A DNA stretch of 64,000 bases. Origin: Candidatus Manganitrophus morganii (GTDB lineage Bacteria; Nitrospirota; Nitrospiria; SBBL01; Manganitrophaceae). Below are positions 34,579-53,839 of this stretch, in pieces. The notes beneath the pieces are model-generated. The model was not told the origin of the DNA. It searched no databases and was given only the letters and a program-made list of their open reading frames with translations. The stretch's first letter is position 1. Every line of letters starts with the position of its first letter. Location of the stretch: the NCBI GenBank assembly GCA_021651055.1, contig JAJHOH010000001.1, positions 124,001-188,000 on the forward strand, read 5' to 3'. The position numbers were made by a program, and so were the translations under genes.

Positions 34579-35329
34579 TACCGGATACCTCCTTTTGTAA
34601 TTGTTGCCTGTGGTCTTCATCCGCTTCTCTTTCCATGTAGCTTAAATAGACCTGTTCGAGGTCGAGCTGATCGAGCTCCCCGCGGGTCAATTCGGTCACC
34701 CGTTTTCCCGACTTCATGATCCCCACCCGATCGGCCAATTGATGCATCCGAAGCAGATCGTGCGTCGCCATCAGAATCGCTCTCCCCTCTGCGCGAAGCT
34801 GGGAGAGGAGCCGGAAGAACTCCGACGCCGCGCGGGGATCGAGGCCGCTCGTCGGCTCGTCCAACAAAAGGAGCTTCGCCCCCTTCATCTTGATCGCCGC
34901 GATCGCCACCTTCTGCCGCATCCCCTTGCTTAAATAGCGCGCTTTCCGGGAGAGCGCCTCTCTCGGGAAACCGACCTCTTCCAACATGCGGTCGCACGCT
35001 TCGAGCGAAGGATTCTGCCCGGCCAGCCGGCCGAAGTAACGGAGGTTGGTTCGGGCATCCAGATCGCCATAAAGAGCAACCTGCTCCGGGATGTAACCGA
35101 TATGTCGTTTGGTCTCCACCGGCTGCGCCACCACGTCGAGGCCGTTGATCTTCGCCGTTCCCCGCGATGGCTGAATGAAGCCGAGCAGAAGATTGATCGT
35201 GGTGCTCTTTCCGGCCCCGTTGGCCCCCAGAAGGGCATAGAGCTCTCCCGGCTGCACTTGAATATTCAGGTCATGAAGTCCGATGTTGCCGTCTTCATAA
35301 ATTTTCGCTAAACCGTGCGTCTCTAACAT
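34559..35329 (-). CDS. ABC-2 type transporter ATP-binding protein (NosF/CcmA-like)
   Basis: The 256-residue ATPase has Walker A GANGAGKST, the signature YLSKGMRQK, Walker B LLLLDEPTSGLD and the H-loop MATHD. It should energise the two permeases encoded just upstream. I chose ATG 35329, preceded by GGAGGACGGA; the longer open frame has no support. Its last 20 bases overlap the receptor gene start. Confidence 0.92.
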   Translation of the reverse strand: MLETHGLAKIYEDGNIGLHDLNIQVQPGELYALLGANGAGKSTTINLLLGFIQPSRGTAKINGLDVVAQPVETKRHIGYIPEQVALYGDLDARTNLRYFGRLAGQNPSLEACDRMLEEVGFPREALSRKARYLSKGMRQKVAIAAIKMKGAKLLLLDEPTSGLDPRAASEFFRLLSQLRAEGRAILMATHDLLRMHQLADRVGIMKSGKRVTELTRGELDQLDLEQVYLSYMEREADEDHRQQLQKEVSGNATGTN

Positions 35330-38210: not shown

Positions 38211-38972
38211 TTATTTCAATTCGAACCGCATGCCGAGAATGATGACGATCCGGTCCTGCCCCTTCAGAAAATCCGGGACGGGAGGGAGGGGCGATGCCTT
38301 GCGGATTGTCTCCATCGCCGCCTGTACCAGTAAGGGATGCGCCTCCGCGGGAGGAAGGATCTCCACCTCGTGCACACGGCCTTTCGGGTCGATCGTAAAC
38401 TGAACATAAACCATTCCTTCAATCCCACGATCTCGCGCCCGCTTTGGATAGAGCCGGTGGCCCGCGATCTGTTTTAACAATGCTTTCCTAAAAGGACCGA
38501 GGCCATCATCGGGCATTCCTGGCGATGGGGTAAGGTGAATCGGTTGCATCGGGAGCGGTTCGATTTCGGAGACCGGCTCCACATCCACCACAGTCGGCTC
38601 CTCCGAAACCGGCAGCGCTTCCGCCACTTCCACCGCCGGGACCTCAGGCGTTATGGCAACAGGGGGTTCCTGGAGAGCCGGCATCTCCTCTGGAGGCGCG
38701 TCGGGCTCAACTTCCTTAACCGGAATCGGCTCTGGAAGAGGGGGGTTCCGTTTTGGTTTTTCTTTTGGAGGAATTGCTTTTTTTTCGACCCGGCTTAGAG
38801 GCGCCTCAACCCTTTTCTTCGGAGGGGTAGAGGCCGTGGCAGCGGCGATCTGAATCCGAATAGTCTGAGCCGGCGGCGTGGCGATCTTTTCTGGCGCAGA
38901 CGGACGAATCCAAAAGAACGCCGCATGGAGCAAGATCGAAACCAAAGTGGCCGCGACGGTCGATGGACTCAC
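38211..38972 (-). CDS. tonB: TonB energy-transducing protein
   Basis: The 253-residue protein has an N-terminal helix (VAATLVSILLHAAFFWI), a long Pro/Glu/Lys-rich periplasm-spanning region (about 30-150) and a C-terminal TonB domain (about 165-253, LYPKRARDRGIEGMVYVQFTIDPKGRV, VQAAMETIRKASPLPP). It couples the ExbBD proton flow to the outer-membrane receptor. It starts with GTG in a GTGA overlap with the exbD stop. Confidence 0.94.
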   Translation of the reverse strand: MSPSTVAATLVSILLHAAFFWIRPSAPEKIATPPAQTIRIQIAAATASTPPKKRVEAPLSRVEKKAIPPKEKPKRNPPLPEPIPVKEVEPDAPPEEMPALQEPPVAITPEVPAVEVAEALPVSEEPTVVDVEPVSEIEPLPMQPIHLTPSPGMPDDGLGPFRKALLKQIAGHRLYPKRARDRGIEGMVYVQFTIDPKGRVHEVEILPPAEAHPLLVQAAMETIRKASPLPPVPDFLKGQDRIVIILGMRFELK

Positions 38973-39394
38973 TCCGATTCTCCATCCGCCGAACGGGTGA
39001 CGATCGCCAAATCGGGCACCCCCAACCCCTTGGCTAAATCCAACAGATCGACGAAATGATGAAATTGAACTTGCCGATCCGCCGAGAGGAAAAGGGTCTT
39101 CGTCTTCCCCGCTTCGATCCGATCCTTCAAAACCTCCGGCAAATCTTGCCGGGTGACCGGCGCCTCGTCGATGAAGATCTCCCCTCCTTTACGGAGGAGG
39201 AGATGGATCTCTTCCTTCTCCTCTTTCGGTTTCGCCTGATCGGCCTGAGGGAGAACCAGGTCGAGGACCGGTCGAGCAGCGATGATGGATGTGAGCATGA
39301 AGAAGATAAGAAGTTGAAAAACCATATCGATCATCGGCGTCATGTCGATTCCCGTCGCCGCTTCCTCCTCTCCGGATCTCTTGAGACGAAACAT
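38969..39394 (-). CDS. exbD: Biopolymer transport protein ExbD
   Basis: The 141-residue protein has one N-terminal helix with the essential membrane Asp (DMTPMIDMVFQLLIFFMLTS) and a periplasmic domain typical of ExbD/TolR. It lies between exbB and tonB and overlaps tonB at the stop codon. It forms the proton channel with ExbB. Confidence 0.94.
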   Translation of the reverse strand: MFRLKRSGEEEAATGIDMTPMIDMVFQLLIFFMLTSIIAARPVLDLVLPQADQAKPKEEKEEIHLLLRKGGEIFIDEAPVTRQDLPEVLKDRIEAGKTKTLFLSADRQVQFHHFVDLLDLAKGLGVPDLAIVTRSADGESE

Positions 39395-39403
39395 GCCCCC
39401 TCC

Positions 39404-40081
39404 TTATCTGCCGTTCGGTGTTGTTAAGCCGATCACGGCCTCTCTCACCCTCTCCTTCTCCTTAATTTCCTGGAAGCGGTATTTCTTCAGGAGGAGAAGG
39501 AGCTCGCTTCCATAATGTTCCAACTGGAAACGAAGATGAGACACCCTCGATTTAAGATAGTGATGGGCGATGAGGGTCGGAATGGCCACCAGAAGCCCCC
39601 CCACGGTGGTGATGAGCGCGGTCCAGATCCCCGACGCGAGGAGGGCCGGGGAGACGCTTTCCTTCATCTCCGCCACCTGTTGAAACGTCTCGACCATCCC
39701 CACAACCGTGCCGAGCAATCCGAGCATGGTGGAGATGGATGCGATTAGGGCCAGCGCCGGAATTCCCCGGTTGGCGCTTTGCAACATCTCCTCGCCCCGA
39801 ATCGACATCGACTCCTGGATGATCTCGATCTCCTCTTCCGGAGCGGAGAGGCCCTCCTTCAAAACGGCACCGATCGGCCCGCGAATCTGCTCGGCCGCGC
39901 TCCGCGCTCCCTTGATATCGCCTCGTGAGAGGTGATCTTTCAGGTGGTCGAACAAAGAATAAGGGGATGCGGAGATCCTCAAAAAAAACCATCCCCGCTC
40001 CAGGATGAGGGTGACCGCCACGATCGAAGCGAGAAGGATCGGGTGCATCCAGATCCCGCCTTTAAGATAGAGATCAAACAT
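39404..40081 (-). CDS. exbB: Biopolymer transport protein ExbB (MotA/TolQ/ExbB family)
   Basis: The 225-residue protein has three helices and the family core STMLGLLGTVVGMVETFQQVA and SPALLASGIWTALITTVGGLLVAIPTLIAHHYL. An AAAGGAG site precedes the ATG. It heads the seven-gene operon running to the TonB-dependent receptor. The 258-base gap upstream (40082-40339) contains a strong bidirectional terminator; I could not recognise a Fur-type box or riboswitch in it. Confidence 0.94.
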   Translation of the reverse strand: MFDLYLKGGIWMHPILLASIVAVTLILERGWFFLRISASPYSLFDHLKDHLSRGDIKGARSAAEQIRGPIGAVLKEGLSAPEEEIEIIQESMSIRGEEMLQSANRGIPALALIASISTMLGLLGTVVGMVETFQQVAEMKESVSPALLASGIWTALITTVGGLLVAIPTLIAHHYLKSRVSHLRFQLEHYGSELLLLLKKYRFQEIKEKERVREAVIGLTTPNGR

Positions 40082-40240
40082 GGTAAGCTCCTTTCAACGC
40101 CCCGGTGATGCTGGCCAGGGGGGGCCTTCCGCCGAAACTTCTTCGTGAGACGGCTTCTTATTTTCTGATTGGAAAACAGTATCGAACTTATTCTGAAGAC
40201 ACCGCTCGAAATACTGATCACACGACATAGCAAAAGAAAA

Positions 40241-40284
40241 AGCCGCAACGGGAGAACACTCATTCTCCTCGTTGCGGCTTTTTT
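40241..40284. terminator. Bidirectional intrinsic terminator
   Basis: The 10-bp stem AGCCGCAACG / CGTTGCGGCT continues with GGAGAA / TTCTCC around a 6-base loop. Six T follow on the + strand, and on the minus strand the stem is followed by TTTTTCTTTT. In the minus sense it ends the transcript of the second metal ABC operon and separates it from the exbB operon. Confidence 0.92.
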
Positions 40285-40339
40285 GTCTTAAACGACTTCT
40301 TTGCCTGGCTCGATTTAACTAACGCAAATCAAATTTACT

Positions 40340-40624
40340 TCATGTTCCGACCGCGCGGTCCGGATGATATTGCAACGGCACAATTAACCAATGTTTACAC
40401 TTGGGACACTTTGCAAAGGTTCTCTTCGCCTGGAGGTCGGTCTTAATGACCGCCGCCTTGATCACCGCAGAGGTCCCTTCCTCCAGGACATGGATCTGAT
40501 ATTTACAAAAAGGGCATCGGCCTTGAGAGCAGAGCGCCGTACCTTCTATTTTCGAGTCAGAACTTATCGAAGCTTTTCGTTGGTCAGTCGACATCGATTG
40601 TTCATCCTTCCACACAAACATCAT
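40340..40624 (-). CDS. Small four-cysteine zinc-ribbon protein, paralogue 2
   Basis: The 94-residue protein carries CPFCKYQIHV and AKCPKCKHWLIVPLQY, the same two CxxC knuckles and framework as the product of 31574-31813, with a longer polar N-terminus. Its ATG overlaps the stop of the permease gene (ATGA), so it is firmly part of the second metal ABC operon and precedes the terminator. A start at the internal Met11 is possible. Function unknown; the conserved link with metal ABC genes suggests a zinc-responsive or metal-delivery role. Confidence 0.8.
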   Translation of the reverse strand: MMFVWKDEQSMSTDQRKASISSDSKIEGTALCSQGRCPFCKYQIHVLEEGTSAVIKAAVIKTDLQAKRTFAKCPKCKHWLIVPLQYHPDRAVGT

Positions 40625-41538
40625 CGTCCCAATACCCTCTTGATGATCCCAGGGATCAAAAAGAATCCAGCCGCTCCAAGCATTGCCGGGCCGGTCGGCA
40701 ACGAGTAAACAAATGAGAGATAAAATCCAATCGCCGCCGAAAGAACGCCGAAGATCATCGACAGCGAAAATGCGATCTTCAAACGATCAGTCAGCATCAA
40801 CGCCGAGGCAGCCGGCATGACCAGGAACGAGAAAACCGGAAGGGCGCCGATCGCCGCGATCGAGACCGAGATCGTAAATGCCAAGGTAACGAAAAGAACC
40901 TGGTTCAGCAAGCGGACATTCGACCCGGTCGCCTGCGCCGTCTCCGGGTCAAAAGAGATATAAACAAAACGCTTATAGAGCAGAAAGTGAATCGAAAAGA
41001 CTCCGACGAGTGTCCCGGCAAGCAGCCAGAGATGACGCTCCGGGACGAAGATGACATTTCCGAAGAGAATATTCTCAATATCGTGGGTCTCGGCCGCCAG
41101 CTTATCGAGGATCAGAAAAACGAGTCCCGCCGGTAAGGCATATCCGATGCCGAGGATGCTCTCCCGCGTCAGCTTCTTCTCCCCGACCTGTACCGCCAGA
41201 ATTGAGGCGGTTACACAACCGAAGAAGAGCGAGGAGAGAAGCGGCCCGTTCACGATCCCCTCTTCCGCCGGAAGCAACCCGGCGGAAGCAGCCCCGCTCC
41301 CCAGAAGAGCACTTCCGAGAAAGAAGAAGGCAATCCCAAGTGAGGAGATCTGGGAGAGCGCTGCCGAGACGAAGACGATCCGTTTTAAGATCACATAGAT
41401 GCCGAGATATCCGGCCAACAGGGCGACCATGATCGAGGCGACGACTCCGCTCTGAAGGATGGGGAGGGCCTCCCAAAAGGTCATTCCGCCGTTTTCCGCC
41501 AGAAGAAGTCTGCCGATGATCGGGATTGACTCAAGCAT
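40621..41538 (-). CDS. Metal ABC transporter permease (ZnuB/MntB family)
   Basis: The 305-residue ABC-3 permease has eight or nine helices (LPILQSGVVASIMVALLAGYLGIYVILKRIVFVSAALSQISSLGIAFF and VTLAFTISVSIAAIGALPVFSFLVMPAASALML are typical). I chose ATG 41538, which overlaps the end of the ATPase gene by eight bases and has AGGGGAT upstream; an in-frame ATG at 41562 falls in the His-rich tail repeat of the ATPase gene. It lacks the His-rich tail of the first cluster's permease. Confidence 0.9.
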   Translation of the reverse strand: MLESIPIIGRLLLAENGGMTFWEALPILQSGVVASIMVALLAGYLGIYVILKRIVFVSAALSQISSLGIAFFFLGSALLGSGAASAGLLPAEEGIVNGPLLSSLFFGCVTASILAVQVGEKKLTRESILGIGYALPAGLVFLILDKLAAETHDIENILFGNVIFVPERHLWLLAGTLVGVFSIHFLLYKRFVYISFDPETAQATGSNVRLLNQVLFVTLAFTISVSIAAIGALPVFSFLVMPAASALMLTDRLKIAFSLSMIFGVLSAAIGFYLSFVYSLPTGPAMLGAAGFFLIPGIIKRVLGR

Positions 41539-42346
41539 GTTCGTGATCCCCCTGCCCGCCATGTTCGTGATCCCCCTTCCGATCGGGATGGTCGTGATCG
41601 CTGTGGCGATGGACGAAGAAATACTTATGTCCGTGGAGGAGATGCGCGTCGATATCGAGCTGATAGATCTCTTTGAGCGTGGCGTTCGTCAGCAACGTCT
41701 CCGTGTCGCCGATTTTCACCGTCTGATTCTCACGGTGGATGATAATCAGCTTATGCGCATAATTCGAGATCAGATTAAGCATATGGGTGATCATCACCAA
41801 CGATAACCTCGCCTCTTTGTGAAGGTCGAGGAGGAGCTGCATAATGGTGCTCTCCCCGGCAATGTCCATCCCATCGGTCGGCTCATCCAACACCAAAATA
41901 TCAGGCTCGCCTGCAAGCGCACGGGCGATGAGTGTTCGTTGCTTCTGTCCTCCTGAGAGCGCCCGATACGGTTTGTTTACCTGAGACGTCATCCCGACCT
42001 TTTCGATGAAATGTGCAGCAAGATCGTGATCTTTCTTCTCCAGCCGTCCCGGCAATCCAAGAAATGGATATCGCCCCATTAGAACCACATCACGGACAGT
42101 CACCGGGAAGATATCATCGATGACGCCTCGCTGGGGAACATAACCGAACCGAACCCCCGGCGCCCGCTCCACCACCCCGCTCAAGGGAGGAATAATCCCC
42201 AAAAGCGTCTTAACCAGGGTGGTCTTACCGGCCCCGTTCGGCCCGACGATCCCCCAGAAATCCCCCCGATCAATTGAGACGTTAATTTCCGAGAGAATCG
42301 GGGTGCGTCGATAGCCGATTGTTAAATCTTTCGCTGAAACCTGCAT
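41531..42346 (-). CDS. Metal ABC transporter ATP-binding protein with His-rich tail
   Basis: The 271-residue ATPase has Walker A GPNGAGKTT, FGYVPQRGVIDDIFPVTVRDVV, the signature LSGGQKQR and Walker B ILVLDEPTDGMD. After residue 235 it adds a tail rich in His and Asp (HRHSDHDHPDRKGDHEHGG). Here the His tail is on the ATPase, in the first cluster on the permease. The tail is encoded by a short tandem duplication at about 41536-41581. Confidence 0.92.
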   Translation of the reverse strand: MQVSAKDLTIGYRRTPILSEINVSIDRGDFWGIVGPNGAGKTTLVKTLLGIIPPLSGVVERAPGVRFGYVPQRGVIDDIFPVTVRDVVLMGRYPFLGLPGRLEKKDHDLAAHFIEKVGMTSQVNKPYRALSGGQKQRTLIARALAGEPDILVLDEPTDGMDIAGESTIMQLLLDLHKEARLSLVMITHMLNLISNYAHKLIIIHRENQTVKIGDTETLLTNATLKEIYQLDIDAHLLHGHKYFFVHRHSDHDHPDRKGDHEHGGQGDHEHA

Positions 42347-42366
42347 TCATTTTATCCGGTTTGAAC

Positions 42367-43329
42367 TCATTGAATACCCTTCAACGTGTCCGTGAGTTTA
42401 CCATAGACCACCTCAAAGAGGTCGAAGTAGTCTTTCACGCCGACATCCTCCCCCACAGACGAGGGAAGAACGAGATGGGTTGCGCCGGTTTGCTTTGCGA
42501 CTTCTTTCGGAATACGAAGATTCTGCCACGGGGAGGTGACGATCAAAGGAATTTTTTGAGCTTTCATCTTCTGAATCAGGGAAGCCATCTCCGCGGCACT
42601 GGGCGGAATGGTCTCACGCGGCTCAATGTAGCCGGCGTGTTTTAAGCCATGACGTTTGATCAGGTAAATCCAATCCCGATGGTAACTCACCAGGGGGGTC
42701 CCTTTGAACGGCTCCATCATCGCATCCCACTTTGCGATCCGCTCTTTCAGGGCACTCTGAAATTGGGTTAAATTCGTTTGGTAGAAGTCCGCATTGCTCG
42801 GATCAATTTCGGCCAATTTATTGGCAATGTTCTGGGCCACAATCAGACCGTTCGCAGGATCGAGCCAATAGTGGTGATTCCCCCGAACGACCGATACCTG
42901 CCCTCCCCCCGCCGACTGCGTTCCGGCGATAATATTGGTTGTGAAAAAGGGGGTGCTCAACAATTCTTCCGGGGAGTAAGGAATGAGCTCGACCCCCTCC
43001 GACGGATTCAGATAGCCCGGCGCTCCTTCCAGTATTTCAGAATTTCTGGCATTTGTCAGCGCGGTCGGAAGCCAGGCGAGCTCCATATCTTGACCATTGA
43101 CGATTAGAAGATCCGCCCGATTGAGCATCACCGCGAGATTCGGCTTCAGCTGGATGGCGTGGGGGTCCTGGGACGCCAGCGTGAGACTCTTGACGTCGGC
43201 TTTATCCTGTGCAATCGCTTTCACAATCGCGGCATCCTGGGGAAAGCTGGTCACGATATTCAGCTTTGCCCAAGACGGAGCGGCTCCCAAAAAGATTAAA
43301 GCGAAGATTCCCAAAATGGTCTTTTTCAT
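42367..43329 (-). CDS. Metal ABC transporter substrate-binding protein (ZnuA-like)
   Basis: The 320-residue periplasmic protein has a signal peptide (cleavage near SWA-KL). Candidate metal ligands are His57 (DPHAIQLKP), His152/153 (GNHHYWLDP), His217 (SYHRDWIYL) and an acidic residue near the C-terminus. As in the first cluster, the third ligand is His, which favours zinc or a similar ion over manganese. It lies between the outer-membrane protein gene and the ATPase gene in a six-gene operon. Confidence 0.92.
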   Translation of the reverse strand: MKKTILGIFALIFLGAAPSWAKLNIVTSFPQDAAIVKAIAQDKADVKSLTLASQDPHAIQLKPNLAVMLNRADLLIVNGQDMELAWLPTALTNARNSEILEGAPGYLNPSEGVELIPYSPEELLSTPFFTTNIIAGTQSAGGGQVSVVRGNHHYWLDPANGLIVAQNIANKLAEIDPSNADFYQTNLTQFQSALKERIAKWDAMMEPFKGTPLVSYHRDWIYLIKRHGLKHAGYIEPRETIPPSAAEMASLIQKMKAQKIPLIVTSPWQNLRIPKEVAKQTGATHLVLPSSVGEDVGVKDYFDLFEVVYGKLTDTLKGIQ

Positions 43330-43344
43330 GCCGATACTCCTTTA

Positions 43345-44655
43345 CTAGAATAGATTGTAAAACTTGCCCAACCCCGGCGTAACCGTTCCGCCGCCGATAT
43401 TGAATTGGACATAAAAAACGTCATAGTCTTCATCCGCGCCGGATTGATCGGTATGATTATATTGGAAGCTGATCCGGCTGACAGGGTTGATGTAATACCG
43501 GAGACTGGCGGTATAACGGGCCTGTCGGTCTTCGTGCCCCCTCGGAATACCGACATAATCAAAGCGGCCATCGACCTCCCAATAGTAAGAGAATCGATAA
43601 GCTAGTTCCGTATACATACCGCCGATTGTATCATCCTCCATGACCGTACTTACAACCTGGCTTTCAAGATCGACCCCAGGGGCGCGGGTGGAACGGTCGA
43701 GCGCCAATACGACCGGATTTTCCCGTTTCCCTGCCAAATACTCGGTTGTCCATCGAACATACGGGCTGTATGGAGCCGGCTTCCATTGATACGTAAAATC
43801 GGCGCCGTAGAGGATGGTTCGGTCGCCCAAACCTGCGTCGATTGCGAGCGGATTAAAGCCAGGATCAGCAAAGTCCATTGTGTTGCTCTTATTCTTTCCC
43901 GTCGCAAAAGAGGCTCCGAACTCCAGGTTGGAATTGAGGGTCAGATCAAAGAAGGTCGTTGCCCGGCTAAAGAAAATAAACTCATTGGCGCTAACATCCC
44001 CCGCCACCTCATCCCATTCACCAGGGAAGGTGCGGTCGAAGTTTCCGACCGGACCTCGCATGAGAGCAGCCGATAGCTCCATGAAGACCGGCGTTGGCGG
44101 TTGCCAATTGAACTCAAGTCCGACATTATGAACCCCATCGACGCCAAGGAAGAAGGTCGAGATCAAAGGAGGATCGGCAAAGGCCCATTCATGGTCGTGA
44201 TACTGGTTTAACTTCATAAAATTGACTCGAAAGATTCCAGTTTTCGCCTGAAGGGAAAAAGGCAATTTATGAAAAAGGATAAATGCCTCTTCAATTGCAG
44301 CCTCATCCTGTGCAAATGCCGTAAAGAGCGCCCACTTACACGGAAGGTTGGCATAGAGAATAAAACAATCCTGAGAGAAGGCCAGATCGAAGCTGGTCAC
44401 GGACAAGCCCTCAAATTGCCGGTCGCCCAGCTTGACTGGATTCACCCCCTCGTCATAATTGGTAAAGGCCCCATAGACGATGTTTGCCGTCCAGGAGACA
44501 TCGACCAATCCATAACGGCTTAAGCTGACCCCTTTGGTGTGGGCTTCTGCAGAGGGCGCCTTAGAAATAAAAACGCCGAGCATCAGAACAACCAAGAAGA
44601 TCTTCCACACAGACAGAGAGCGACACATCCTCTCTTTTTTTGGAAATTGGGACAT
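43345..44655 (-). CDS. Outer-membrane beta-barrel protein of a metal ABC operon
   Basis: The 436-residue product has a signal peptide (helix at about 17-33, cleavage near AEA-HT), about 14-16 amphipathic beta strands and a terminal Phe (GLGKFYNLF). It lacks a plug domain and TonB box, so it is porin-like. Its ATG abuts the stop of the His-rich gene, whose last codons (Glu-Glu-Glu, GAGGAGGAA) double as the ribosome site. Being in the same operon as a ZnuABC-type transporter, it may let metal ions cross the outer membrane under starvation. I do not recognise a named family. Confidence 0.82.
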   Translation of the reverse strand: MSQFPKKERMCRSLSVWKIFLVVLMLGVFISKAPSAEAHTKGVSLSRYGLVDVSWTANIVYGAFTNYDEGVNPVKLGDRQFEGLSVTSFDLAFSQDCFILYANLPCKWALFTAFAQDEAAIEEAFILFHKLPFSLQAKTGIFRVNFMKLNQYHDHEWAFADPPLISTFFLGVDGVHNVGLEFNWQPPTPVFMELSAALMRGPVGNFDRTFPGEWDEVAGDVSANEFIFFSRATTFFDLTLNSNLEFGASFATGKNKSNTMDFADPGFNPLAIDAGLGDRTILYGADFTYQWKPAPYSPYVRWTTEYLAGKRENPVVLALDRSTRAPGVDLESQVVSTVMEDDTIGGMYTELAYRFSYYWEVDGRFDYVGIPRGHEDRQARYTASLRYYINPVSRISFQYNHTDQSGADEDYDVFYVQFNIGGGTVTPGLGKFYNLF

Positions 44656-44964
44656 TTATTCCTCCTCTGTTTGTATTGGTTCTCTATCATGCATTGCATG
44701 CCTTTTTTTTCCATTCAACGGATTCTTTTCTTCTAAAGAATCGCATGAATGAAGCAAATCGTGTTCTGAAGAATGTTGGTGCTCTGCTGCCTCATGGGTA
44801 TGTTCATGGAGATGGTTAGGATCACCAGAGGATGCCGCTTCATGATGATCATGGCCATTGAACCCTTCAGGGTGGGTGTGGTGATGATGCGTATCGTCTG
44901 AATGAGCATGCGTGTGAGTGACCTTTTTATGGTAATGGCGATGATAGAACTCGTCACAAGACAT
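44656..44964 (-). CDS. Histidine-rich protein heading the second metal ABC operon
   Basis: The 102-residue product has 24 His and two Cys and no signal peptide (MSCDEFYHRHYHKK, THTHAHSDDTHHHHTH, NHLHEHTHEAAEHQHSSEH). I chose ATG 44964, which has GGAGG five bases upstream; an in-frame ATG at 44982 lacks one. It resembles the His-rich 56-residue protein of the first cluster in composition but not in length. It may buffer or deliver zinc/nickel. A palindrome (45002-45019) lies in its promoter region. Confidence 0.82.
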   Translation of the reverse strand: MSCDEFYHRHYHKKVTHTHAHSDDTHHHHTHPEGFNGHDHHEAASSGDPNHLHEHTHEAAEHQHSSEHDLLHSCDSLEEKNPLNGKKRHAMHDREPIQTEEE

Positions 44965-45001
44965 CAATTCCTCCGATTTCATCTGTCGATCTAGGTGATA
45001 C

Positions 45002-45137: not shown

Positions 45138-48100
45138 TTATTGGCAGGGTTGACCGGGAAGGTCCCAACACAATCTTACGATATATTCTCCGTTTGCATC
45201 GATATCGAATGAATAACTCCCGGAGTTCGCATCCGATTTTGTTTGCACATCCATTCCCAACACCTGGATATTGACCGCTCCGACGGGAACACCGGCGGGC
45301 GGCGGTCCCACAGGATCATAGGTAACCCCGTTAATCGACACCACAGAGGGCAACAATGAAAGCGCCCGAAGCTTCGTATAAGAAACTGCATCCGGAATCG
45401 AATCGAGGATGTTATTCCCCACTCCCCCATTAATCGCACGGACAACAACCAATCCGGGCGGAACGTTAAAGATAATAAATCCACCGTTAAATCCAACCCC
45501 GGCCGAGGTCGCGCTCAGACTCTCATCAATTTGCCCCGCACTATCCAGGTAGCGAACCTCTCCGACCCTTGCCCCATTCATATCCCTTGCTTCAAGCGAA
45601 ATACCGCCGACCGGATTCTCACGTCCCAATAAGGTCGCAATATGAGAGCCAACAACGACAAGATCAAAAAGACCGTCCCTGTCCTGATCCGATAGTAAGA
45701 TTTTCTCTGGCGTTGTCAACGGCGCCCCGAGTGCAATCGGGTCGGAAAGAGTGAATGTCCCGTCCCCGTTCCCAAATAGGACCAAAACAGAATTATCCGC
45801 TTGACGCGTGATGGCCAAATCCGCCCGCCCATCCCCGTTGAACTCCCCGACGCTGATAGAGGAAGGATTATTTCCTATTGCGATGGACGGTACGAAGTTC
45901 TGATTTGCGTCGGCTAATCGATCGAACCCTCCGCTGGTATTCCCGATGAAGATTGTTAGGACATCTGTGTTTTTGTCGATAACAGCCAAATCCAAACGGG
46001 CGTCGGAGTTAAGATCCACTAACGCCATCGACTCGGGTTGACTGCCGCTTCCGACCGAGACGGAGATCGGTGAACCGCTGTTTGGGTCGCTCAATGGTTG
46101 GAAAGTGCCATCGGTGCTTCCCAGCAAAACGGTGATCGTTCCGCTTCCTGAATTAGAAATGGCCATATCCATCCGCTGGTCCTGGTTGAAATCGCCGGCG
46201 ATAATCGCCTTCGGTGCGTTTTCGACCCCATTTTGAACGATGCTGGTATTCTGGACAATGGGGTGGAAAGTGCCGTTCCCGTTGCCCAACAAGACAATCA
46301 CGGAGTTATCTCCTTCATTCACAACAGCGATATCGGCAAAAGTGTCTGAATCAAAAAAACCTGCAACCACCGCAATAGGGGCACTCAGCGGGTGGGGGTT
46401 TATTTCCTGCTGCTCGGCGTCAACGATGGGTTCGTCTACAGCAACGAAGTTCCCGTTCTTATCTCCCCTGAGGACAGTGATCGAATCGTCGTCCCGATTT
46501 GTAATGACCAAATCCGCGCTTCCATTTCCATCAAAATCCGCCACTGCGATCGCCGACGGATTATCTTCAATTCCATCGGTAACGACGCTAGGATTACCGA
46601 AGCCGCCGTCCACACTTTCCGATCCAAAAAGCACGGTCACTGTTCCAGGCGTTCCCGGATTTGTAATTGCGATGTCCAGAATGGCATCTTGATTAAAAAA
46701 CCCAAGCGCGGCGGCGTGAGGGCCCGCTCCAAGCGCTGTCGAAGAAATCTCTTGGGAAAAACTGCTACGAATCGTCGTCCCGACAATCAACCCGTTGGCG
46801 CCGCTCTGTGCGATTCCTGCTTGGGTTGCCGTGTCACCGATCTGTGCACGAGAGATGGAGAAAAGATCGAGATTCTTTGAGTTGAGTACCCCGGTGCGAG
46901 GGAAAAAATTATAGGTGTCGTAGGAACCATCTTTTTCCGTCTCGATGATAAACCGGCCAAAAGATTCCAAGGTTCCCTGATAATCGCCATTACCATCCGC
47001 CGAGATGACATCACTCCTGCCAACGGCCCTCAATTGAGACCCGACGACGGAGGCGCCTGCTAAATCCTTTATTGTCCCTGAGACAGTTACCCGTGACGGG
47101 ATGACTTTTGTCATGACGAATTCGAAATAGGTCACCCCGTTTGGATAGACATAAAGAGTCGCATTACCGGAGTCTTCCCCAGAGATGACAGAGAGATTCA
47201 CCATCCCGGGAGGCACATTGGGAATACGGAAAATGCCGTCGGATGAGGTGATTTCCCCTCCTGCGACTGGACTTCCATTGAGATCAGTAATCCTCAGGGT
47301 CACATTCTCAGCCGTCTGACCCGTTCCCTGATCGATTAAGAGTGTGTAGATTTCTCCCAGAGCAGGATTCGTCGTGGTGGAAGGCGGGCTAATGATAAAA
47401 TTTTGTTTTGTCTCTGTATCGGTCATGGTGAAGATTTCATAGGTGTCGGCATGCCCGGCCTCTGATATTTTGGCCCGGTATGCTCTTCCGCCGATGAGCG
47501 TATCATCTAGAACTTCATAGTCGCCCGCCGAATCACTTGAGTATATTTGGGAGGTTATCCCCAAGAAGGTCAATTGTGCCCCGGATACCGAGGCTGAGCT
47601 CGCTCCATCGATGATGCTTCCGGAGAGGTCTTGAGCGGTATTTGTTCCCGAGTTCGTGATGTTTTGTACAAATACCACCCCCGGAAAAGAGGGAACGATC
47701 ATTCCGCCGCTGGAGCTGCTGGTGGCCCCTCCCGATCCAAGGGTCACTTTTGTGAAATAGCTTACAAATATTTCTCCGGGCGGAACGTTATAAATAAAGA
47801 AAAGTCCATTCGTAGAGGTTTGATTCGTATCGGTTGTAACCTCACAACTGCCGCGAGACCCATCGACATAAACAATCACTGCGCCGGATGCAGAAAGGTC
47901 ATTTCCAGCCGCGTCCCTAACAGAGAGTTTGGCACAATGTTGCGGCGTTCCATCCCCTCCGGTCACTCGTCCGGTGATAATCCCTTTACCAGGATCGACC
48001 GGAACTCCTCCCTCAGAGGCAATCTCGGCAATGTAGCTGTTCGAATAAGTTGATACGGTTTTTGTAACATCTTGAATATTAGTCGCTGCTTGGAAAGGAG

Positions 48101-48977
48101 TTGTGTTCAGAGAGTGGTATGAATCCCAATAACCCGATTTACTTACATTTAAGAGGTAATTACCATTGGTCCCGATGGAGATAAATGAATAAAGGCCGTT
48201 TGCATCGCTGGTGGTCGTTAATCCCGAATCCGTAGTCCCCAAGACAGAAACGGTTGCCTCAGGGACGGCTGTCGATTCATCCTTCGCCTCAATCACGCTT
48301 CCGGTGACGCCGACGGTCGAAATGGCGATCGGAATAACTTGAAGCTTTCCGACGGAGATTTTATTGGCAAAGACTTTGATACGGGCATTGCCTCTTCCTC
48401 CCCGCGATGCCCACAAATAGACTTCTCCCGGAGGAAGGTTGAAAATTGTGTATGTCCCGGCGACGGAAGTCCCCCTGTTATTCGAGAAATCGGGAACCCC
48501 TCCCGGACTGTTGTAGTAAACGCTTCCCTTGATGCAGATATTATCAAACGAAATATTCTCTGCGGGGCAGATGAACCCATCCGGAAGCACAAGATTATTC
48601 CCCACCTTTTTCCCTTCCATCCGAATCGCCAGAAGATTCCCATCTGCATCAGTCACTTTTAACGCAATGTCTTGAACAGGGCTTCCATTGAAAAGCACGA
48701 GTCCGCTCACTGTTCCGAGACCGAGTAACTGCTGGTCCTGAGCCGCTGCAAGGAGGGTTAAGAGATCGGCGGCAGAGATAATTTGAAGATTGCCGTCGGG
48801 ATTGCCTCGGGAAATCGGACCGGCGCCCGTTTTGAAGTCGAAAAGATAGGTCTCTGAGAAGGGAACATCACGAATACCGGTCGATCCGGGCCCGCCGGGG
48901 AAGGTTTGCGAATTACAACCGACAAAAGCAAGGGCTATAAAAATGATAAACCATGTAACGAGCGTACGCATAAGCAT
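45138..48977 (-). CDS. Giant lipoprotein with carboxypeptidase-regulatory domains and FG-GAP repeats
   Basis: The 1279-residue protein starts with a signal segment and a lipobox-like VGC (Cys21). Residues 30-720 hold several carboxypeptidase-regulatory-like beta domains, each with a variant of (F)xIxNVPPGxVxL. About 755-1115 carry seven FG-GAP/VCBS repeats of the type D-x-D-LAVxN...NSVxVLxGNxxGTF, which form a seven-bladed propeller in integrin-like proteins. One more regulatory domain ends the chain. The ATG overlaps the stop of the DUF1302-like gene (TAATG). It should be exposed on the outer membrane or surface and may bind a polymer or cells. Function unknown. Confidence 0.82.
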   Translation of the reverse strand: MLMRTLVTWFIIFIALAFVGCNSQTFPGGPGSTGIRDVPFSETYLFDFKTGAGPISRGNPDGNLQIISAADLLTLLAAAQDQQLLGLGTVSGLVLFNGSPVQDIALKVTDADGNLLAIRMEGKKVGNNLVLPDGFICPAENISFDNICIKGSVYYNSPGGVPDFSNNRGTSVAGTYTIFNLPPGEVYLWASRGGRGNARIKVFANKISVGKLQVIPIAISTVGVTGSVIEAKDESTAVPEATVSVLGTTDSGLTTTSDANGLYSFISIGTNGNYLLNVSKSGYWDSYHSLNTTPFQAATNIQDVTKTVSTYSNSYIAEIASEGGVPVDPGKGIITGRVTGGDGTPQHCAKLSVRDAAGNDLSASGAVIVYVDGSRGSCEVTTDTNQTSTNGLFFIYNVPPGEIFVSYFTKVTLGSGGATSSSSGGMIVPSFPGVVFVQNITNSGTNTAQDLSGSIIDGASSASVSGAQLTFLGITSQIYSSDSAGDYEVLDDTLIGGRAYRAKISEAGHADTYEIFTMTDTETKQNFIISPPSTTTNPALGEIYTLLIDQGTGQTAENVTLRITDLNGSPVAGGEITSSDGIFRIPNVPPGMVNLSVISGEDSGNATLYVYPNGVTYFEFVMTKVIPSRVTVSGTIKDLAGASVVGSQLRAVGRSDVISADGNGDYQGTLESFGRFIIETEKDGSYDTYNFFPRTGVLNSKNLDLFSISRAQIGDTATQAGIAQSGANGLIVGTTIRSSFSQEISSTALGAGPHAAALGFFNQDAILDIAITNPGTPGTVTVLFGSESVDGGFGNPSVVTDGIEDNPSAIAVADFDGNGSADLVITNRDDDSITVLRGDKNGNFVAVDEPIVDAEQQEINPHPLSAPIAVVAGFFDSDTFADIAVVNEGDNSVIVLLGNGNGTFHPIVQNTSIVQNGVENAPKAIIAGDFNQDQRMDMAISNSGSGTITVLLGSTDGTFQPLSDPNSGSPISVSVGSGSQPESMALVDLNSDARLDLAVIDKNTDVLTIFIGNTSGGFDRLADANQNFVPSIAIGNNPSSISVGEFNGDGRADLAITRQADNSVLVLFGNGDGTFTLSDPIALGAPLTTPEKILLSDQDRDGLFDLVVVGSHIATLLGRENPVGGISLEARDMNGARVGEVRYLDSAGQIDESLSATSAGVGFNGGFIIFNVPPGLVVVRAINGGVGNNILDSIPDAVSYTKLRALSLLPSVVSINGVTYDPVGPPPAGVPVGAVNIQVLGMDVQTKSDANSGSYSFDIDANGEYIVRLCWDLPGQPCQ

Positions 48978-50596
48978 TAGAAGCTATAGGTGATATCCCA
49001 AAAAATTCGGTCGTTGTTATCGAAAAATCCAACAAAGTGGAATTCTCCCGGGAGACCGGTTCCGATTTTTCCTTCGAAGAGATCGACTCCGAAGGAGACA
49101 CGGAGACGATCGGTGATGTTATAAAATGTTCGGGGCCGAATCAGCCAGTCCTCGTCGTTAAAAAAGTAAAGAACGAGTAGATTACCCGTCCAAAGATTGT
49201 GAATAAATTCTTTGCGAATAAAAACGGCCCCGACCGTATCTACCTTGTCCTGAATAATGTTCTGATCATAGTCGATAATGTATTGTTGGATCGCGGCGGG
49301 AGAAACATCCATTCCTAAAATATAGAGGTCGAATCCGACCGCATATTTCACATAATTCTTTTGGATCTCCCCTTGCTGAACCGATAATCCATCTCCAAAC
49401 CGAGCGCCAAACACTTTTCCATCGACGTAGGCCGCCTCCGCATTAAATACAAAACCCGAAAAGGTTTTTGAATAGGTCGTCCCATAAATATGAAGACGGT
49501 TATATTTAGGGACAAAGTCCACAGTCGGGGCAAGGGCGAATTCCCCTGAACCGGCAATAGACCGGAAAGAGGAAGGAAAATCGTCCCAGGTGTAGAAGTA
49601 GCTTGCTGAGAGTTCGAAACCGGAGAAAACACGGGTGTATTTTAAGGCGATTTCCGTGTTGTCGATGTTATTTGGAAAATCTTCATAAGGTTGCCCCGGC
49701 TTTTCAAGGTTTGGGAGCAGTCTGAATTGCTCCCACTCTGTTCCCTTGGGAGCCGGACGGTGACCCCGAACCTCCGGGATAATAATCCCTTCAAATGTAT
49801 TGGATCCCAGGTAGAGATCCCCTTTGATCATAAAGAGAGGAATGTATCGATCATCAATATCTCTGAGGATCAACTCATAAAAATCGAGCGGATTAATCTC
49901 GTCTGTGACGCGAGCCCCTTCAACAACCCCCCAACGGACGATCTGTCGACCGATACGAAGATCGAAATTTTGAAAGTTGATGTCGAGATAAAGCTCTTTT
50001 AATTCAATACGAGACTTGACGATATGAACATCTCGAACATTATTCGGGTCTAGCCCGCTGACCTGATCGGGCTCTGTTACATTGTCGACGAGGATCGTGT
50101 CTGGGCCCTTTCTCGGGCTAATCACATCGATGCTTTCCACGTCGTAGACGGCGTCGTAAAATGCACGGAGTCGTCCAGCAAGTTGGACCTTGGGAGCCAG
50201 ACGGTAACGTCCCTCCAGATGAAGGATGTTGAGGATTTTGTCAAAACCGGTCGGGGAAACATACCGAAATGCGGTCTCATTTCGAAGATACCCCCCCCAG
50301 GTTAGATCATCGCTTATTTTCTCTAAAAGCCGATTCAAGAGAGGGGATGGCGGCGCGGCCGGTTTTTCTATGCGATCTTGTCCCCCTTTTTCAGGTGCGG
50401 GTGGAGGGGTAGTAGGCTTCTCATTTTGTTCCGGAGTTTTAATGCTGGGGAAGATGTCCTCGACATCTTGTCCGAATACAATTCCTCGAGATAGGATGAA
50501 AATAAACGCAAGCCATTGGAGGGAAACGCTCAGCACACGCAGGAAACGATATGCTGTTTTGTGGCTACTTATTATTTGTATATACAAACCTGGCAT
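48977..50596 (-). CDS. DUF1302-like outer-membrane beta-barrel protein
   Basis: The 539-residue protein has a long signal region (cleavage near FGQ-DV) and a Pro/Glu/Lys-rich linker (about 45-90). A barrel follows with DUF1302-type features (ISDDLTWGGYLRNETAFRY, DLRIGRQIVRWGVVEGARVTDEINPLDF) and a terminal Phe (WDITYSF). The RIGRQ-V-WG...TDxINPxD motif is the best marker. The ribosome site is weak (GGGAAAA). It lies between the TPR-barrel gene and the giant lipoprotein gene, with translational coupling to the latter. DUF1302 proteins are often found with lipid or hydrophobic-compound transport; the role here is not known. Confidence 0.82.
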   Translation of the reverse strand: MPGLYIQIISSHKTAYRFLRVLSVSLQWLAFIFILSRGIVFGQDVEDIFPSIKTPEQNEKPTTPPPAPEKGGQDRIEKPAAPPSPLLNRLLEKISDDLTWGGYLRNETAFRYVSPTGFDKILNILHLEGRYRLAPKVQLAGRLRAFYDAVYDVESIDVISPRKGPDTILVDNVTEPDQVSGLDPNNVRDVHIVKSRIELKELYLDINFQNFDLRIGRQIVRWGVVEGARVTDEINPLDFYELILRDIDDRYIPLFMIKGDLYLGSNTFEGIIIPEVRGHRPAPKGTEWEQFRLLPNLEKPGQPYEDFPNNIDNTEIALKYTRVFSGFELSASYFYTWDDFPSSFRSIAGSGEFALAPTVDFVPKYNRLHIYGTTYSKTFSGFVFNAEAAYVDGKVFGARFGDGLSVQQGEIQKNYVKYAVGFDLYILGMDVSPAAIQQYIIDYDQNIIQDKVDTVGAVFIRKEFIHNLWTGNLLVLYFFNDEDWLIRPRTFYNITDRLRVSFGVDLFEGKIGTGLPGEFHFVGFFDNNDRIFWDITYSF

Positions 50597-50674
50597 TTTT
50601 TTCCCAATACTATTTCAAAATTACCAGACGAGTGAATCACTGTCAATTACGCAAGTCATTGATTTATATTAGTT

Positions 50675-53600
50675 TTAAAAAGACCAGTTCATAAATAAAT
50701 TATATATCTTCTCCCTGAAGCTTCCTAAGGATTCTGCTTGTCCCGATAGTCTTTGTTCCGCAGTTACAAAAACGGCAGCTGGAAGGTTCGATTGATTCCT
50801 TAGGTCGGTATAACTGAGTCCGAGGGATAAGCTCTCCTGAAGGAAATAGAGAGCGGTTAGGGTAAATGAGTGGAGAAAATTTCTCCGAAAGGCAGAACTT
50901 CCTAGAAAAGAATCAGGGTTCTTGAATTCTTTCATCTCCAGGTTATAAGAAATACTTCCCCTCGCAGCATTTTCTAGAAATGGCCGGCTATACGAGACCC
51001 CGACTCCGTGAGACTGATAGGCTTGGTCACTCAGATTGGTATCATTATCAAAATAGCTATATGAGGCATTGAGGCTATTAAGCTTCCAGTTCTGAACAGC
51101 GCTTATTCTAATTCTATGACGGACAGCATCGTTGCTCTCCCGAGCATATGAATAAAAATCATCATAGCTGTAGACAAATCCCAATACCGAAGGTGTATGG
51201 CCCCTTCTGTAAATGCTCAGAATACTGGTTTGTCCTCTGCTGGTCGGTCCTCCCCTGGCGATACCCAAATAAAAGTTATATTCAAAAGATAAAGAATAAG
51301 GATCTTGAAACCTGGTTGCGGAAATTGAAAAGGTCTCGCTGCTAAAGACCGTATTCGTTCTAAAAAAAACAGTATTCTGGGTGCTGAATCCGATCGGTAT
51401 TTGTAAACGTCTGTCTTTTTTAAGGTAATAATTAAATGTGAGCCCAAGAGACGAAGAGATATCCCCCCCCTCATTTGATGCACCGCTTGGATTACTGTCA
51501 TAACCTAAAATAACCTGGCTTAGATTAATCGTATATCGCTTTTCAAGAGGAGAGAGCCGCCCTCTCGTCCAGAGCACATCCGGAGAGTCCCCCTCTCCTA
51601 AAAACTCCAATGTATTGCGGTATGTTTGAATGGCTTTCTCAATTCTCCCCTCTTTTTCGTAAAGGAAAGACAGTCTTTGATTCGCCTGGATGTTGATGGG
51701 ATTTATTTCCAAAACCTTTTTATAATATCTGCTTGCTTGATCATCCTCTCCAAGGCTTTCGTACGATGAACCGATAAAATATAAACCGGCGACATCCGAA
51801 GGATAAAAAAGAACCACCTTTTCAAACGATTCAATCGCACTGCGATAATCCTGCTCGTTCATATATCGATTCCCGCGATTGAAATACCGTCTTGCTTCAA
51901 TCTCATTTTTGATCTTTCGCTTCACCCGTTCCAACTCGGTTTGAATCTTCGGGCGGAGCTCTTCAGGCAATGCTTTTGCCTTTAATGCCAGATCATACGC
52001 TCGTTTGGCATCTTCCCATTGACCGGCCGAAAAATAGAGAAGGCCAAGATGATATTGTTCCTCCCCTGTTGACGGATCCTGTAACGATATGCTGTTCAAC
52101 TCTCTGTATGCTTCTGTTGTACTACCTAATTTTATATAAAGAAGGGCCAACTTTAGTCTTATCCGGATATCATCAGGCGCGATTGACAATGCCCGCTTCA
52201 GCGTTTCAGTTGCAGCTGTCCATTTTCCGCCCGCGGATTCTTCCTCCGCCTTTCTGACAAGAAGAACCGTTTCCGATTCGATTTTAGAAAGCTTTTCTGC
52301 AAGACTCTGAAGATGTAATCTTGTTTCGTCTGAGACGAGGAGCGCACCGACGTCTTTTAACATTTTTAAAGCTTGATAAAGATATCCTTTTTCATGATAC
52401 ATCGCCCCAAGTTGTTGACGAGCTTGTACATGCCCCGGATTGAACTCGAGAACCCCTAACATCTCATTAATCGCCAAATCTATTTTTCCATTTTGCCGAT
52501 AGAGATGACCGAGTTTATAGTGCAGATCTGAATCTTCGGGACGAATGGAGATTGCTTGTTCTAATTTTGTAATCGCCTCTTCAGCTTTTCCTTCTTGGAG
52601 CAGCTTTTGACTTTCTTCATAAAGTTCACGGGCGGATTCATCCGCAAACTTTATCTGTTGCTCAACCCTTGCAACGAAGTGATCCAATTCCGTTCGGTGC
52701 CGATCGTTCCTCTGCAAGGGCGTCTGGGCTTTTTGATATTCCGTTTTTGCACGATTGAAATATCCGACCATTTCATAAATTTGGCCGAGGCGCTGATGGG
52801 CCTCCGAATAGTTCGGCTGTATCTCAATTGCCCTCTTAAAAGACGTTTCTGCAAGATCAATCCGATTCTTTCGAGCCCATAGATTTCCAAGATTGAAATA
52901 AGCTAATGCCTGATTGGGATTAATCTTAAACAACGATTGCAATGTTGAAATAGCGCCATCAATATTATTGTTATCGGCTTGTATAAGGGCCTGGTCGATG
53001 TATGTTTTTACCTCAAGCTGATCTTCAATCGCATTTAATTTTTCCTCAAGAGACTGCACTTCAGGACCATCCCGGTCTTCTATAAAGAAGAGAGCCCTTT
53101 CCACTTCCACTCTCGCTTCTAAAAGATCTCCCTTCAATTCGTGAAGTTCTGCGAGCCGAATTCTGGAGTCGGTCATGTTCGGTCTTAGCCGCAGTGATGC
53201 CTTGAAACTTTCAATTGCCTCATCGAAACGATTTTGTACGCCTAATACAGTTCCAAGCCAATAGTGTGCGAGAGCATTGTTGGCCTGAACTGTAAGAACG
53301 GTTCGAAAAGCATTCTCCGCCGCTTGATAGTTTCCGTTCCGAAAAAAGTTTATTCCACGGTCCCAATTTTCCCTGAAGTGAATCGTCTTCTCTATATTTT
53401 CAAGACGAGCTAAGATAGTCGTTTCTTGAAGAGGAGAACTGTCCGTGAGATAAAGATATGCCTCTTCATACTCTCTCAGAGCTTCTTCAAGATTTCCCTG
53501 ACTCTCATAAATTTCAGCGAGACGAATATGGGCAGCAACGAGGTCCGGCTTTAATTCAACAGCTCGATTCAGTACCGTCAAAGCCAGGTCTATTCGTCGT

Positions 53601-53839
53601 GTCGCAGCGAAAATACTCCCTAAATTAAAATAAACGAATGGATTTTCAGGATCACCTTTCAAAACTGCACGAAAAATCTCTTCCGCTGCTTTAAGGTCCC
53701 CTTTTTGAAGCGCTTCAACTCCTTTTTCAAAAGTATGGAGAGGTAATTCTTCGGAATAACACTTGTTTCTTAATATTGGAGATAAAACGAACAGGATAGA
53801 AATAATATATGGCAGGTAGTGGGATATTCGTCTACTCAA
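50675..53839 (-). CDS. TPR-repeat protein with C-terminal outer-membrane barrel
   Basis: The 1054-residue protein has a signal segment (residues 8-28). About 17-20 tetratricopeptide repeats follow up to residue 740 (for example NPFVYFNLGSIFAATRRIDLA, NALAHYWLGTVLGVQNRFDEA), then a beta-barrel of about 280 residues ending in NWSF. TPR plus barrel is the plan of BcsC, PgaA and AlgK/AlgE-type exporters of polysaccharides. I chose TTG 53839, the only available start. It overlaps the stop of a nine-codon ORF (MMLTPGKNT at 53840-53870) that may couple translation. Base composition is lower in GC than the first 30 kb. Confidence 0.83.
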   Translation of the reverse strand: MSRRISHYLPYIISILFVLSPILRNKCYSEELPLHTFEKGVEALQKGDLKAAEEIFRAVLKGDPENPFVYFNLGSIFAATRRIDLALTVLNRAVELKPDLVAAHIRLAEIYESQGNLEEALREYEEAYLYLTDSSPLQETTILARLENIEKTIHFRENWDRGINFFRNGNYQAAENAFRTVLTVQANNALAHYWLGTVLGVQNRFDEAIESFKASLRLRPNMTDSRIRLAELHELKGDLLEARVEVERALFFIEDRDGPEVQSLEEKLNAIEDQLEVKTYIDQALIQADNNNIDGAISTLQSLFKINPNQALAYFNLGNLWARKNRIDLAETSFKRAIEIQPNYSEAHQRLGQIYEMVGYFNRAKTEYQKAQTPLQRNDRHRTELDHFVARVEQQIKFADESARELYEESQKLLQEGKAEEAITKLEQAISIRPEDSDLHYKLGHLYRQNGKIDLAINEMLGVLEFNPGHVQARQQLGAMYHEKGYLYQALKMLKDVGALLVSDETRLHLQSLAEKLSKIESETVLLVRKAEEESAGGKWTAATETLKRALSIAPDDIRIRLKLALLYIKLGSTTEAYRELNSISLQDPSTGEEQYHLGLLYFSAGQWEDAKRAYDLALKAKALPEELRPKIQTELERVKRKIKNEIEARRYFNRGNRYMNEQDYRSAIESFEKVVLFYPSDVAGLYFIGSSYESLGEDDQASRYYKKVLEINPINIQANQRLSFLYEKEGRIEKAIQTYRNTLEFLGEGDSPDVLWTRGRLSPLEKRYTINLSQVILGYDSNPSGASNEGGDISSSLGLTFNYYLKKDRRLQIPIGFSTQNTVFFRTNTVFSSETFSISATRFQDPYSLSFEYNFYLGIARGGPTSRGQTSILSIYRRGHTPSVLGFVYSYDDFYSYARESNDAVRHRIRISAVQNWKLNSLNASYSYFDNDTNLSDQAYQSHGVGVSYSRPFLENAARGSISYNLEMKEFKNPDSFLGSSAFRRNFLHSFTLTALYFLQESLSLGLSYTDLRNQSNLPAAVFVTAEQRLSGQAESLGSFREKIYNLFMNWSF

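Follow-up and report, generated by a model that had tools for sequence, protein, structure and literature searches.

Three consecutive genes of Candidatus Manganitrophus (Nitrospirota; genome of 4.29 Mb in one contig) raise the question of what a TPR protein joined to an outer-membrane barrel, a second outer-membrane barrel and a giant lipoprotein could accomplish together. All three lie as intact open reading frames, in line on the minus strand, within the window, i.e., the whole 64,000-nucleotide stretch of DNA that was analysed (Table 1), and the original prediction of a TPR-barrel gene, a second barrel gene and a 1279-residue lipoprotein gene was correct in this respect. We designate as T the TPR and barrel protein, as D the DUF1302 barrel and as L the giant lipoprotein, while o and S stand for a small barrel and for small secreted proteins. 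No study of the T-D-L set was found in the literature, in which papers on DUF1302 and on Manganitrophus were searched; the Manganitrophaceae genome paper covers Cyc2 and porin-cytochrome complexes but contains neither tetratricopeptide nor FG-GAP as a term.

The domain content of the three proteins was established from Pfam and from structural modelling. Many TPR families matched T (TPR_2, 2e-64), and its AlphaFold2 model (mean pLDDT 89.7) consists of a long TPR superhelix followed by a C-terminal 14-strand barrel, which bears out the plan expected for the first gene. D scored 50.6 bits against DUF1302 (PF06980), above the curated cut-off of 23.2. L starts with MLMRTLVTWFIIFIALAFVGC, a lipobox with Cys21, and matched FG-GAP_3 in six stretches (9e-31) and CarboxypepD_reg (2e-20), in agreement with the predicted lipoprotein carrying a propeller and repeated regulatory domains. 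Seven FG-GAP motifs were counted by eye between residues ~755 and 1105, of which a regular expression recovered 6, and the seven motifs would fit a seven-bladed propeller. The Cys followed by a conserved FP (C....FP start) is retained across nearly all L relatives, and position +2 of L is not an Asp. The close linkage announced for the last two genes was found as well, the D stop and the L start overlapping in TAATG. Promoter and terminator scans gave the same counts as shuffled sequence. The upstream neighbor of the set is tsaD.

Table 1. Coordinates of the T-D-L gene set and of its sequence features, numbered along the window
Feature	Position	Strand	Basis or remark
T: TPR and outer-membrane barrel protein, 1054 aa	50675..53839	-	TTG start; N-terminal signal segment
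T periplasmic TPR superhelix, residues 35-766	51542..53737	-	AlphaFold2 model; Pfam TPR families
T C-terminal 14-strand barrel, residues 769-1054, Slam-like	50678..51535	-	Predicted from model strands; CymA/OmpG fold matches; SlipAM profile relation
D: DUF1302 outer-membrane barrel, 539 aa	48977..50596	-	PF06980; family alignment; the modelled ~18-strand barrel of a fused relative is homologous
TAATG, D stop and L start, one-base overlap	48975..48979	-	Read at 48977
L: giant lipoprotein, 1279 aa, lipobox Cys21	45138..48977	-	ORF, Pfam and family alignment
L N-terminal signature domain, residues 21-220	48318..48917	-	Alignment; Cys, FP, VPF..TY.F.FKTG, then transthyretin-like domain
L FG-GAP propeller region, ~residues 740-1115	45633..46760	-	FG-GAP_3 in 6 stretches; motif count

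On its 3' side, the set is followed by a probable zinc-acquisition cluster (window 38211-44982, minus strand) encoding a His-rich 108-aa protein, a 436-aa barrel-like protein without Pfam family, a ZnuA-like binding protein, an ABC ATPase with a His-rich tail, an ABC-3 permease, ExbB, ExbD and TonB, alongside which a TonB-dependent receptor was noted at 32221-34620. The His-rich protein, the 436-aa barrel and the zinc transporter were considered as possible parts of the unit and rejected, being absent after the set in two other loci (L092 and L024).

The same genome contains a second T-D-L set in the same order at 3.00 Mb (copy B, 2.8 Mb from the window), preceded by two S genes and o, and a third, rearranged set at 0.92 Mb (copy C, 0.75 Mb from the window) that reads S-S-S-D-o-T-L and is followed by the gene of a Kelch-propeller lipoprotein. 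The L protein of copy C is devoid of the FG-GAP propeller and, given the Kelch-propeller lipoprotein next to it, this indicates that the set brings a propeller along, built into L or encoded by the gene after it. In many other Nitrospiria genomes, the order and strand of T-D-L are kept, mostly with small gaps or overlaps, and tsaD is retained upstream in several relatives of the window copy. When a profile of the L N-terminal domain, which was built from loci of the T-D-L type and thus favors such hits, was run against 296 Nitrospirota genomes, it revealed 21 loci in 15 genomes; D directly adjoins L in all 21 of them and T is present in 17, the four others being D-L pairs without a neighboring T, and no L without D was found in this search. 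The four loci of another family, outside the source loci of the profile, also have D. These gene maps are mechanical longest-ORF calls in which some starts are wrong, and the relatives are mostly metagenome-assembled genomes. Moreover, the D tree and the T-barrel tree agree in recovering A, B, C and F as one group each, and the D distances correlate with those of the T barrel at 0.73, a value reached by none of 999 permutations. Group A includes the window copy and covers two families of the order. The recurrence of the same gene set elsewhere in its own genome and in many others, which had been set beforehand as the test of the prediction, rules out chance, and T-D-L is a conserved unit. In the nearest named relative, Candidatus Manganitrophus sp. 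GAC4 (D identity, 94%), frame breaks split T, D or L in all three copies (L024, L126, L049, and L056), perhaps as a result of sequencing or assembly errors; the genes of the window genome are intact.

In a sister family, the barrels are physically joined. Four genomes encode a single protein of 1574 to 1598 aa in which the TPRs are followed by the barrels of T, o and D, with L as the next gene, and in a fifth genome (L114) the fused gene is cut by the contig end. In the fused protein of L109, Pfam recognized N-terminal TPRs and a DUF1302 stretch spanning residues 1155 to 1426, and the strand list of an AlphaFold2 model of its barrel part gave barrels of ~14, then ~8, then ~18 strands (pLDDT, 71; pTM, 0.44), a model that is only moderately reliable since MAFFT misplaces the ends of incomplete rows in the underlying alignments A5 and A6. 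With the fused chain, the first Foldseek list was filled by general porins, and a second look at the D part named the OprD/Occ channels as closest (Z 22), followed by AlgE (Z 20.7). D is thus predicted from this model to be an 18-strand, porin-like barrel. The fusion of T, o and D in one chain indicates that these barrels belong together. Altogether, conserved synteny, co-inheritance and fusion give good support to the dedicated export or surface-display machine that had been predicted.

What such a machine moves depends largely on what T is. In fold, the T barrel matched CymA (Z 22.6) and OmpG (Z 21.3), both 14-strand porins, whereas the barrels of BcsC and PgaA have 16 strands. The resemblance to BcsC and PgaA that was first attributed to T was not supported: no BCSC_C domain (PF05420) was detected in the window genome, the Escherichia coli control being positive, and T scored 57.5 bits against the PgaA model TIGR03939, far below its equivalog cut-off of 366.65, with the best stretch confined to the TPR part. 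The Foldseek results for T were filled by TPR proteins, sequence searches of the PDB with the T barrels and D gave nothing meaningful, and the window T barrel alone had no Pfam match. In two relatives, SlipAM was the only family matched by the barrel, below its cut-off of 22 bits (19 bits, E 0.0011 in L025; 14.7 bits, E 0.022 in L018). Two other genes, recognized as T from contig positions and open-frame lengths, exceeded this cut-off over part of the model (28.7 bits in L046; 24.2 bits in L045). A T-profile search of the phylum retrieved many smaller TPR and barrel proteins, including a bridging 538-aa Nitrospirota protein (L151) that reached 33.3 bits over positions 79 to 288 of the 288 of SlipAM. 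Finally, profile-profile comparison of the T barrels with SlipAM proteins gave 96.1% (E 3e-9, 253 columns), versus 1.2% for D and 1.4% for o against SlipAM and 0.45% for T against D. A SlipAM search of the window genome, without a match, was uninformative in that no control genome gave a signal either; a 143-genome sample of the class of G321, searched at a strict cut-off, also yielded nothing.

The only specific relationship of the T barrel thus appears to be a distant one with the Slam/DUF560 (SlipAM) family. Based on the SlipAM scores of the relatives, the bridging protein and the contrast between the profile match and its controls, we take T to be probably related to the Slam group, either as a giant, distant member or as its sister. 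Nevertheless, PF04575 also gathered PgaA homologues in one cluster (PMC8406197), so that a SlipAM match alone is no proof of a protein cargo. Elsewhere in Nitrospirota (L145, L146, L147, and L151), we observed a small module made of a 380- to 540-aa protein with TPRs and a Slam-like barrel, a 236- to 313-aa protein and a lipoprotein; in L145, the second protein is a FecR (Pfam) and the lipoprotein has CarboxypepD_reg, the same domain as L. These modules could possibly be Slam-like display loci distributed throughout the phylum.

We lean, with modest confidence, towards a model of surface display similar to Slam and type 11 secretion, in which T would display L and D would be the partner of L. 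In known Slam loci, Slam tends to be encoded close to its cargo lipoprotein and to the receptor barrel that partners this cargo (PMC7857515 and PMC8406197), and TbpB is moved in vitro by Slam acting with a periplasmic chaperone (PMC9090332). By analogy, L would be synthesized with a lipoprotein signal, lipidated and taken to the outer membrane via the ordinary Lol route, as suggested by the lack of Asp at +2. The periplasmic TPR superhelix of T would then bind L, or a chaperone holding L, and pass it outward through or alongside the 14-strand barrel, so that L would be held at the outside of the cell by its lipid anchor. D would be the obligate membrane partner of L, the N-terminal domain of L probably docking on D in the way that the Slam cargoes TbpB and HpuA work with a partner receptor barrel. 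We infer that transport is directed outward, that L is located at the surface in contact with D, and that L, and not another molecule, is what T moves. The locus probably works like Slam and is probably related to it.

The role of L as cargo may not be exclusive. Against it speak the four D-L loci that have no T next to them, and D-o-T sets devoid of L were seen in Gammaproteobacteria and one family of Nitrospirota, where many of them include an MMPL pump and some a LolA_like gene. The latter sets indicate that L is not the only possible client of T; the machine may be modular, with L as one client among several. A broader hypothesis, which we consider tentative and rather unlikely, would be a distinct modular secretion system built on a three-barrel translocon (a giant Slam-like T, an 8-strand o and an 18-strand D, forming a single chain in one family) that, depending on the lineage, would receive its clients from the Lol path alone or from an MMPL pump working with a LolA-like carrier, and that would export S proteins and mount a giant propeller lipoprotein over the pore. 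Beside T or D-L, several loci (L141, L142, L143, and L028 to L031) contain runs of ~545- to 750-aa TPR membrane proteins, one of which (L028) has a weak protein-O-mannosyltransferase/TMTC match; a role in O-glycosylation of displayed proteins is possible.

The genes that accompany D in other lineages suggest another function, in which D, as part of the DUF1302/LolA-like/MMPL pump group (AmeABCD, monoterpene efflux), would let a lipid or hydrophobic compound leave through the outer membrane, T and L being an accessory scaffold and a surface cap. The wider family of D takes part in the efflux of apolar compounds in AmeABCD, where AmeA is a DUF1302 protein, AmeB a DUF1329/LolA-like protein and AmeD an RND pump (PMC6394551). 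MMPL pump and LolA_like genes adjoin D in L106 and L143, the fused variant has a LolA_like gene immediately upstream, and a separate LolA_like-MMPL-o locus at 4.14 Mb of the window genome could serve in trans. However, none of the copies A, B and C of this genome has an adjoining pump or LolA-like gene, and no MMPL gene lies directly beside an L-associated D, the partial match of L102 being farther off. We judge this function unlikely. Besides its LolA_like, MMPL pump and o-type barrel genes, the separate locus (L155, 4134001-4152000) has five nearby genes for secreted, partly interrelated proteins of 344 to 475 aa, and neither D nor T.

Less likely still would be a system whose main clients are the small S proteins, exported by T, o and D for a surface coat or fiber, with L as a fixed part of the machine and not its cargo. 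Genes for S proteins with signal peptides immediately precede copies B and C as well as the fused variant and the sets of many relatives, and type 11 systems secrete non-lipidated cargo too (PMC8406197), but no S gene adjoins the window copy or its relatives in group A. Furthermore, the S proteins belong to several families without detectable common origin, and the idea of a single S family was abandoned: S219 and S256 are related, but S246 showed no relation to S219. Upstream of T in four loci (L101, 2564-4504; L102, 14188-16122; L103, 5402-6874; L105, 15327-17000), secreted 490- to 646-aa proteins share PPSGDHHR(T/S)G and many Cys residues; the two tested, those of L101 and L105, matched no Pfam family.

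Very unlikely, finally, is a polysaccharide exporter of the BcsC/PgaA/AlgK-AlgE plan with its synthase elsewhere in the genome, for which speak the TPR plus barrel plan of T, the AlgE-like fold of D and the PgaA cluster taken in by PF04575 (PMC8406197), and against which stand the absence of BCSC_C from the genome, the 14 strands of the T barrel without a PgaA barrel match, the slightly greater proximity of D to the OprD/Occ channels than to AlgE, and a giant lipoprotein, not a synthase, as the constant partner of D.

A Slam relative in Nitrospirota, linked to a second barrel and to a cargo unlike those described for Slam, would extend the family beyond Proteobacteria. T-D-L would offer a natural test of what Slam-type translocons recognize, and the fused three-barrel chain a route to seeing how the parts pack. 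Candidatus Manganitrophus includes manganese-oxidizing chemolithoautotrophs (PMC9040806), in which surface proteins are of direct interest.

Among known systems, Slam and the type 11 systems (PF04575) are the closest in plan. Slam consists of TPRs and a predicted 14-strand DUF560 barrel, and about half of the Slam genes adjoin a lipoprotein gene (PMC5449769); T shares the periplasmic TPR domain and, in its AlphaFold2 model, the C-terminal 14-strand barrel, with a lipoprotein gene in the same row (L, after D) and a second barrel gene in the set. However, T has ~18 TPR helix pairs versus the two TPRs described for Slam (PMC7857515). The predicted Slam cargo has a TbpB-like 8-strand barrel (PMC5449769), for which no counterpart was found in L, where Pfam gave only CarboxypepD_reg, related Ig-like families and FG-GAP; L instead carries transthyretin-like domains and the propeller. 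The partner barrel is here a DUF1302 protein and not a TonB-dependent receptor, and the host belongs to Nitrospirota when surveys describe Proteobacteria (PMC5449769 and PMC12282271). Cargo, partner and phylum thus all differ from the described type 11 systems, and we do not claim membership for T-D-L, given that L is without the TbpB-like cargo feature and that the window T has no direct profile match. With AmeABCD, the locus shares the DUF1302 barrel, and some D relatives adjoin LolA_like and MMPL genes, but the flanks of the window locus have neither a LolA-like nor an RND gene, with T and L instead. The BcsC, PgaA and AlgK-AlgE systems similarly have TPRs that are fused to an outer-membrane barrel or cooperate with one, and D is AlgE-like in fold; the differences are the 14 strands, the lack of BCSC_C and the lipoprotein as constant partner, with no polymer synthase seen beside the set, as had been noted at first. 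Lastly, multi-barrel outer-membrane proteins are known in general, e.g., GfcD (Solan 2021, as cited in PMC11494523), and the fused T-o-D relatives resemble them in carrying more than one barrel per chain but differ in that their three predicted barrels, of ~14, 8 and 18 strands, are unlike one another and stand behind a TPR domain.
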